From: Cytobacillus massiliigabonensis
GTDB lineage: Bacteria; Bacillota; Bacilli; Bacillales; Cytobacillaceae
Reading direction: 5' to 3'
Length of the DNA stretch: 64,000 bases
NCBI RefSeq assembly: GCF_900199725.1
Contig: NZ_LT904904.1
Span: 2,093,398 to 2,157,397, forward strand
Numbering within the stretch: position 1 is the first letter of the stretch; each line of letters begins with the position of its first letter. Under the pieces are notes generated by a model, which was given only the letters and a program-made list of their open reading frames with translations, made no database searches and had not been told where the DNA came from. The position numbers and the translations under genes are program-made. Shown piece by piece: positions 27,546 through 28,964 of this stretch.

Positions 27546-28181
27546 CTATTCTGAATCATAATCCTTTATTAAAAATCTGCAATGCGCATCATTGTCTGCC
27601 TTACAGGTTAGTCTTTTTACATTGCTGGTTCCTAAGACTTCCTTGAACATTTCAGTTTCACAAGAACAAGCTTTTTTATACTCTTTTGCAACGGCAAAGA
27701 TAGGACAGTTGTATTCTACTAATTCAAACGTTTTATTATCAATTCTTGTCACATCAGCCATATATCCTTTTTTTATCTGAATATTTTTAAGCTCTACTAT
27801 TTTTTCTTCGAAGTTTTTATGTTTCATGTGCATTATGTAACTATTTTTAAGCCGTTCACTTCTTTTTTCTAAAAGATAATCAATTATTCCTTCTCCATGT
27901 AATTCTTTTAAGTCATTCAGAAATTCTACAGTCATATTTTCATAACTTTTTGGGAATAGATCATTTGCTTTTTGTGATAAAGAATAAACAAGGATCGGCC
28001 TTCCCATTGGCTGTCTTACTTCCTTTATAGCCAGGAATAAATCTCGATCCAGTATATTTAAATGTTTTCGTACAGCCATTTCTGTAATTCCTAAAGACTT
28101 AGAAAGTTCATTAACAGTTAAATTTGTTTCTTTTTTTAATAGTTCAAGTATTTTATCTCTCGTAGAGACTCTAGAAACCAA
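27546..28181 (-). CDS. SufR-like helix-turn-helix regulator with Fe-S-type cysteines
   Basis: The 211-residue protein has an N-terminal winged helix-turn-helix (about residues 20-65, LTVNELSKSLGITEMAVRKHL) and a C-terminal half with Cys159, 172, 174, 193 and 201. The C-x12-C-x-C pattern near EYNCPIFAVA resembles SufR-type regulators that hold an iron-sulfur cluster. The TTG start at 28181 has only a weak ribosome site. It is divergent from cueP, 202 bases away, so it is a candidate regulator of that gene. Copper could be sensed through damage to the cluster, but that is inference. Confidence 0.75.
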   Translation of the reverse strand: MVSRVSTRDKILELLKKETNLTVNELSKSLGITEMAVRKHLNILDRDLFLAIKEVRQPMGRPILVYSLSQKANDLFPKSYENMTVEFLNDLKELHGEGIIDYLLEKRSERLKNSYIMHMKHKNFEEKIVELKNIQIKKGYMADVTRIDNKTFELVEYNCPIFAVAKEYKKACSCETEMFKEVLGTSNVKRLTCKADNDAHCRFLIKDYDSE

Positions 28182-28275: not shown

Positions 28276-28383
28276 TCATATTAATAGCAAAAAAAATATA
28301 TGTAGACTGCTAAATTTAATGCATAAAATCTGCATACTTTTTAGGTATTGTATTCATTGGCTGTGAAAGGAGGATAATTTGAG

Positions 28384-28920
28384 ATGAAAAGGAGATTTAT
28401 TGGTCTTACTTTGTTGGCCACTATTATGTTAGCTGCTTGCAGCGGAGGAAACACGAATGAAGAAACCTCTTCAAAAAAAGGAGAGACTGAAAACATTAAG
28501 GAGCTGGTCCATGATTATAGTACAGGCAAAATCAAGGATCATACAGCTTCAATCACATCAAAGCAACTCATTGTAACCGACAGCGATGAAAGTCAGTTAA
28601 CCTATGAATTGCCTGAGGACGAGTTTTTTGTATCGATCGCTCCTTATGTTAATGAAACCCATCCATGAACGAATCATAGCTTGACAGGTTGTCAAGGAGA
28701 AATGGTGGAGAAAGAGTTTGAGGTATACATTGAAGATAATGAAGGCAATGTAATTGTGAATGAAACAATGAAATCTCAAGCAAATGGATTTATTGATTTA
28801 TGGTTACCGCGAGATAAAAAGTATCATGTAACAATTTCGAATGATGGAAAAATGGTGGAGTCAAAGCTTTCTACTTTTGAAAATGACGGCACATGCATTA
28901 CGACCATGCAATTATCATAG
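28384..28920 (+). CDS. cueP: CueP-family copper-handling lipoprotein with in-frame TGA read as selenocysteine
   Basis: The full frame encodes 178 residues with one internal TGA (28666-28668, residue 95). A signal peptide and lipobox (LAAC, C19) predict an outer-face membrane lipoprotein. The family body reads FVSIAPYVNETHP-U-TNHSLTGCQGE, then LWLPRDKKYHVTI. From memory CueP of Salmonella has three conserved cysteines near 96, 104 and 172; here these are U95, C103 and C171, with the same spacing. A SECIS-like hairpin lies just after the TGA. AAAGGAGG precedes the ATG. Automated callers would report two broken genes. The alternative, a nonsense mutation, is less likely because everything downstream is intact. 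Confidence 0.85.
28680..28696 (+). promoter_or_regulatory. SECIS-like hairpin in cueP
   Basis: CTTGAC (28680-28685) pairs with GTCAAG (28691-28696) around an AGGTT loop. The loop begins 17 bases after the TGA, the same distance as in the E. coli fdhF SECIS as I remember it, where the loop is AGGTCT. The loop guanines are the positions read by SelB. Confidence 0.75.
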
Positions 28921-28922
28921 GA

Positions 28923-28964
28923 AAAACAAACCATTTTGATTCATCAAAATGGTTTGTTTTTTTG
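28923..28964. terminator. Terminator of cueP
   Basis: AAAACAAACCATTTTGA (about 28924-28940) pairs with TCAAAATGGTTTGTTTT, followed by more Ts. It is bidirectional and also serves the opposing 49-residue gene. Confidence 0.92.

Follow-up and report, generated by a model that had tools for sequence, protein, structure and literature searches.

A cueP gene with an in-frame TGA codon

The gene cueP-U, located on the forward strand at positions 28384 to 28920 of the 64-kb stretch of DNA that was analyzed (the window), almost certainly encodes a selenocysteine (Sec)-containing CueP protein and, judged by sequence comparison, Sec-CueP is a widespread selenoprotein conserved in many Bacillaceae. The basis of this reading is formed by the in-frame codon, the Sec machinery of the genome, a covarying hairpin, and the predicted CueP fold.

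A preliminary description of this DNA had proposed that cueP-U reads as one CueP protein if its TGA is decoded as an amino acid, with the downstream part being intact. In agreement with this proposal, ORF translation with read-through yielded a protein of 178 amino acids, in which the only in-frame TGA (28666 to 28668) corresponds to residue 95 and no other in-frame stop occurs up to the terminal TAG. The standard code splits the gene into open reading frames (ORFs) of 94 amino acids (28384 to 28668) and 79 amino acids (28681 to 28920), and plain gene calling ends the product at residue 94. Scored with Cys in place of Sec, the read-through product reached 198.3 bits with the NCBIfam model NF038094 (cut-off 60) and 154.6 bits with the Pfam model PF21172 (cut-off 27). 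With the Salmonella-type model NF038095 it reached 150.6 bits, which is below the cut-off of 195, and it was therefore assigned to the wider NF038094 family rather than to the Salmonella-type model. An AlphaFold model, likewise with Cys for Sec, had a pLDDT of 88.3, and its top structural match was Salmonella CueP (PDB 4gqz; E value, 1.9e-15; rmsd, 1.5 to 1.8 Å); the predicted fold of the product is that of CueP.

In the alignment with 4gqz, residue 95 falls on the Cys of 'HPCFNHSLSGCQGE', which is the first Cys of the THPC..H...GC motif, and the TGA thus stands in place of a conserved CueP cysteine, as had been supposed. In an alignment of 57 Sec-form sequences, residue 95 (Sec read as Cys), His93 of the THPU motif (28660 to 28662), His98 (28675 to 28677), Cys103 (28690 to 28692), and the third cysteine, Cys171 (28894 to 28896), were all invariant. 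The 8-residue spacing indicates that Cys103 is the counterpart of Salmonella Cys104 and Sec95 that of the first Cys of the pair, which we take to be Cys96. The cueP-U product and Salmonella CueP (NF038095/PF21172) share the fold, the motif THPC..H...GCQGE, the third Cys, and export, which is predicted in the case of cueP-U, but the cueP-U product has Sec for the first Cys and is a predicted lipoprotein of a Gram-positive bacterium.

Several further elements on the same strand were read from the sequence. A ribosome binding site, AAAGGAGG, is located at 28366 to 28373, and a lipobox (LAAC) has Cys19 (28438 to 28440) as the predicted lipidation site; a lipobox-like motif was present in 114 of 122 TGA-form cueP genes. 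The terminator reported previously was recovered as an intrinsic terminator-like hairpin followed by a T run at 28920 to 28963 (1 found versus 0.3 expected). Promoter-like sites were not above chance (2 found versus 4.0 expected), and an Rfam scan of the 64 kb gave no families.

Distribution of the TGA codon among CueP homologues

CueP over the cut-off was found in 104 of 193 genomes of the window's family (87 with the TGA form, 16 with Cys only, and 1 with a fragment), in 88 of 397 genomes of the order, and in 9 of 398 genomes of the phylum. Of the 88 from the order, 12 belong to the window's family, and the remaining 76 consist of 30 with the TGA form and 46 with Cys only; the two genomes from the phylum sample with a TGA both belonged to the window's family. 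Within these samples the TGA form is therefore restricted to this order. An Ammoniphilus record, placed in the Paenibacillaceae by NCBI, also has a TGA-form CueP.

In the column of residue 95, the 191 aligned hits had TGA in 123 cases, a Cys codon in 65 (47 TGT, 18 TGC), TAC in 1, and a gap in 2; locus L121 gave no hit. The 123 TGA-form genes, including that of the window, come from 117 genomes of the family and order, one per species, which excludes a sequencing error at 28666 to 28668. Also counted in the TGA set are L120 (a draft with a broken reading frame) and L196, each with additional in-frame TGAs, and L200, which has extra stops; a few cueP remnants (G140 and second fragments in G375, G392, and G396) were left out. 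Elsewhere in the domain, in-frame TGAs were found only in damaged-looking copies (L120, L195, L196, and L200). One of these, L195 (G350:C1:355100-356800), is the second CueP copy of its genome and has decayed: it contains an internal TAG, its first Cys is replaced by Tyr, and the position of the second Cys is occupied by TGA. This genome has no SelB over the cut-off.

Homologous Cys-form CueP proteins of Bacillales, and of plasmids from Exiguobacterium and Staphylococcus, share the motif with cueP-U but have a Cys codon (THPC). Both forms occur within the single genomes G044 and G224. More than one TGA-form gene was seen in G182 (L019, L045, L054), G007 (L044, L108), G097 (L025, L057), G220 (L163, L178), and G346 (L168, L198). 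A tree calculated from 182 rows (117 Sec, 65 Cys, identical proteins being used once) and 144 columns, in which many forks are unsettled, indicated a minimum of 7 switches of the form when only supported branches are counted, and 19 switches on the best tree.

A conserved hairpin downstream of the TGA codon

The putative SECIS hairpin CTTGAC-AGGTT-GTCAAG is located on the forward strand at 28680 to 28696. It has a 6-bp stem and an AGGTT loop, and its first paired base is the 12th base after the TGA, exactly as described before; a distance of 17 bases, which the preliminary description also gave, is correct for the loop but not for the hairpin. RNA folding extended it to 7 bp with a GGU loop, with −7.3 kcal/mol over 39 nt and −9.0 kcal/mol over 60 nt. 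The 11-nt spacing and the AGGU-type apical loop are the same as in the Escherichia coli fdhF-type SECIS, the stem sequence of which is unlike that of cueP-U. In a May 2026 review (PMC13188914), the bSECIS consensus is given as a loop of 3 to 9 nt with G in the first two loop positions, a stem of 4 to 16 bp, a UGA-to-loop distance of 16 to 37 nt, and a minimum free energy of −7.5 kcal/mol or lower. Both versions of the cueP-U hairpin (a 7-bp stem with the GGU loop and a 6-bp stem with AGGUU) lie within the loop and stem ranges and have G in the first two loop positions, and the distance of 17 nt to AGGUU or 18 nt to GGU is likewise within its range; the energy of the isolated 39-nt hairpin is just short of the limit, that of the 60-nt segment is below it.

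Compared with shuffled sequences, the fold energy was unremarkable (z −1.73, with 13 of 200 shuffles as stable; for 60 nt, z −0.99 and 27 of 200), and the case for the hairpin therefore rests on its conservation. When up to 2 mismatches were allowed, the combination of TGA and hairpin occurred once in the window and in none of 100 shuffles. For counts across homologues, 187 of the 191 aligned hits were used (122 TGA, 65 Cys); the remaining four, which were left out, were the two hits with a gap, L195 with its TAC, and L201, a TGA gene at a contig end. The six pairs and the AGGUU loop were present in all of the 122 TGA genes whose segment is complete, so that the homologues with TGA and the same hairpin that the preliminary description had suggested looking for do exist. 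Cys homologues lacking the hairpin, which it had named as evidence against its reading, exist alongside them: among the 65 Cys genes, six pairs were found in 10, AGGUU in 14, and both in 3 (L009, L012, and L177), leaving 62 without the full hairpin plus AGGUU. The hairpins of L009, L012, and L177 are read as traces of recent Sec-to-Cys changes.

The codons under the hairpin were nearly frozen in the TGA genes (ACA in 117 of 117 Thr codons, GGT in 122 of 122, TGT in 120 of 122). In the codon-variation test, performed with the 182 rows of the tree, synonymous heterozygosity at codons +5 to +9 was 0 to 0.17 in Sec genes versus 0.36 to 0.74 in Cys genes, and at codons +6 and +7 the Sec genes had 0, the Cys genes 0.64 and 0.74, respectively. 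Differences between the two sets were much smaller at the majority of the other conserved codons, although lower values in the Sec set were also seen at His +3, Phe +17, and a small number of further positions. The second pair covaries from U-A to C-G across two codons: Leu TTG was combined with Gln CAA in 110 genes and CTG with CAG in 12, and mixed combinations did not occur. On the best tree, at least 4 changes were required for each of the two codons. At the fifth pair, 2 genes have G-C and 3 have G-U. In Cys genes the association of the Leu and Gln codons was weaker (32, 6, 6, 6; p 0.025), mismatched combinations were present, and base composition is perhaps its source.

Selenocysteine machinery and co-occurrence with SelB

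The genome carries the sel genes for which the preliminary description had proposed a search. Over the respective cut-offs, selA (558 bits) was found on contig C8 at 2836755-2838134, selB (377.5 bits) at C8:2940583-2942442, and selD at C8:2838695-2839621; the latter is of the Sec type, with an in-frame TGA of its own in the motif KAGUGCKIGP. A single tRNA-Sec exceeded the gathering score (C6:14361-14453, anticodon TCA). It is adjoined (L034 1497-1593) by an ORF of 344 amino acids (L034:332-1366 in G000:C6), named by eye as a phage-type tyrosine recombinase, and a mobile element may use the tRNA-Sec as its insertion site. Formate dehydrogenase (TIGR01591) was matched by 185 of the 193 family genomes, some having one TGA among the matches listed.

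SelB over the cut-off was present in 115 of 117 TGA genomes versus 23 of 62 Cys-only genomes, 39 of which were without it (Fisher's p 8e-21, relatedness being ignored). In this comparison genomes with both forms were counted as TGA, and the fragments of G138, G140, and G141 were in neither class. The two TGA genomes without SelB over the cut-off were G078, which is 66% complete, and G389, which is 96% complete in 480 contigs. The phylogeny-corrected test was weak and not significant: of 7 supported pairs, 2 to 3 were concordant, none was discordant, and 4 to 5 showed no difference. As 23 SelB genomes keep only a Cys CueP, Sec is not obligatory.

A scan of 84,980 species genomes with the TGA-plus-hairpin pattern gave at least 100 stretches, and among the 100 matches listed 99 were CueP, 90 of them flagged by script and 9 recognized by reading the translations, which were cut, disrupted in frame, or altered in the motif; L270 was the only non-CueP match. 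Of these 99, 97 came from Caryophanales (the NCBI order name), including 92 from Bacillaceae. The other two, L215 and L296, are titled Chryseobacterium and Pseudomonas; these labels are probably wrong and the true origin is probably the window's family (as for G081 and G056). Because the pattern was built from CueP genes, with the His98 codon included, and many loci share genomes with the family and order set, the scan tests specificity and supplies names but is not independent evidence.

Genomic neighborhood and copper context

No copper operon was seen around cueP-U in the window: none of the five neighbors scanned was named as a copper gene, and two matched no family. A SufR-like regulator (27546 to 28181, reverse strand; 116.9 bits, below the cut-off of 178.8) is divergent from cueP-U over a shared upstream region, and it was not a recurrent neighbor among the 99 named cueP loci. 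No gene family recurred beside cueP in more than 11 of these 99 loci when ORFs of at least 80 codons within 4.5 kb, where the locus reaches that far, were considered. A membrane protein named by eye as CcdA/DsbD-like was near cueP in 5 of the 99, including L252, and might supply electrons to the Sec site.

On the plasmids of Exiguobacterium and Staphylococcus, a Cys-form CueP adjoins a multicopper oxidase gene (H1), and a Cys-form stretch that is not annotated adjoins a copper ATPase gene (H2), which supports a copper role of CueP in Gram-positive bacteria. On the Staphylococcus equorum plasmid NZ_CP068578.1 (L314, 601-912), such a Cys-form CueP-like stretch, for which no gene is listed, is located upstream of a copper ATPase gene. 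SodC, the client of CueP in Salmonella, was found in 46 of 87 Sec-CueP genomes; the corresponding numbers were 13 of 16 for the Cys genomes and 77 of 90 where no intact CueP is present. Since only 46 of the 87 Sec-CueP genomes have SodC, delivery to this enzyme was rejected as the general role of Sec-CueP.

Discussion

From the features of the gene and its homologues we infer that CueP-U contains Sec, is exported, binds copper through its selenium, and depends on selenium. SelB and Sec-tRNA(UCA) would recognize the hairpin 11 nt past the UGA and insert Sec at residue 95, and the protein would be exported and lipid-anchored at Cys19, with Sec95 on the outer face of the membrane. There, Sec95, Cys103, Cys171, and the nearby His93 and His98 would form a copper/redox site in which Sec takes the place of the first Cys in a C-x7-C pair. 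Sec95 may be a selenolate ligand of Cu(I), or form and break an Se-S bond with Cys103, or both; selenium would make the re-reduction of this bond easy. When selenium is lacking, translation would halt at a 94-aa stub, and copper handling via cueP-U would therefore depend on selenium.

For Salmonella CueP, a copper site of Cys and His residues clustered on the C-terminal domain is described in a review (PMC7558416), and Cys104 is described as a metal thiolate, the exchange C104S abolishing copper resistance (PMC13201067). From the correspondence of Cys103 to Cys104 and of Sec95 to the first Cys we infer a Sec95-Cys103 copper/redox pair; the chances that Sec95 itself is a copper ligand are about even. 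We give an equal chance of being right or wrong to a more comprehensive proposal, namely, that Bacillaceae have a cell-surface selenolate site in which Sec95 is a direct Cu(I) ligand of an exported metallochaperone, that copper tolerance is tied to the selenium supply, and that many Sec/Cys interchanges have left decaying SECIS relics.

Alternatively, Sec might be inserted but be valuable for redox chemistry, CueP-U being an extracytoplasmic reductase or scavenger that acts via a Sec95-Cys103 bond, with copper being secondary. The 8-residue distance between Sec and Cys is compatible with this function, most characterized selenoproteins combine a thioredoxin-like fold with a redox motif according to PMC13188914, and Salmonella cueP is also switched on by N-chlorotaurine via Cpx, as reported in PMC13201067. 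However, the predicted fold is that of CueP and not of thioredoxin, the invariant His93 and His98 fit a metal site, and no conserved reductase partner is encoded nearby, the by-eye CcdA/DsbD-like gene being near 5 of the 99 cueP loci. We consider this alternative a serious one, yet rather doubtful.

A different question is whether a Sec-containing CueP has already been recorded, for example as a RefSeq selenoprotein annotation or in another paper. In favor of this, four families in PMC13188914 are known from GenBank annotation alone. On the other hand, CueP is listed neither in the table of 119 selenoprotein families and subfamilies of that review nor in the selenoprotein table of a 2022 review, bearing out the earlier remark that it is missing from selenoprotein lists. 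Literature searches on CueP with selenoprotein, or on selenoproteins in Bacillaceae, yielded no report, broader matches being surveyed in part; the main text of the deep-Sep paper mentions no Bacillus, Bacillaceae, Bacillota, or copper, and the one-line description of NF038094 makes no mention of selenium. A previous record is thus unlikely. The predicted selenoproteins in PMC13188914 that are metal related by name (CopZ-type 2Fe-2S, the SO_0444 Cu/Zn efflux transporter, SaoB/SaoC, and MbdU) belong, by the table identifiers, to other domain families, and none is CueP.

It is very improbable that the UGA is decoded as something other than Sec, be it Cys, Trp, or by general suppression. Sec machinery in a genome is in itself no proof of the identity of the inserted residue, but the TGA forms carry the hairpin and go together with SelB. 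In addition, TGA terminates 8 of the 42 ORFs of 180 amino acids or longer that were called mechanically in the window, which marks UGA as an ordinary stop here, and general UGA suppression was rejected on these grounds. Although standard translation does give a 94-aa ORF, the idea that cueP-U is a pseudogene or nonsense allele with this truncation as its sole product can practically be dismissed, given the TGA in the same column of 123 aligned genes with the downstream half kept open, the synonymous and compensatory conservation of the hairpin, the near-exclusive occurrence with SelB, and the different appearance of the truly decayed copy L195.

A Sec-containing CueP would have consequences beyond the single gene. 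The SECIS, fixed within five codons and showing compensatory changes, offers clean natural data for studying recognition by SelB and for tracing the gain and loss of Sec codons. Many members of the bacterial group to which the window belongs grow with oxygen. With CueP, a copper metallochaperone would join the selenoproteins in such a group, where Sec is held to be disfavored (PMC13188914). Because both forms are found among related species, and in G044 and G224 even within one genome, the gain that selenium may offer over sulfur at a copper site becomes directly testable.
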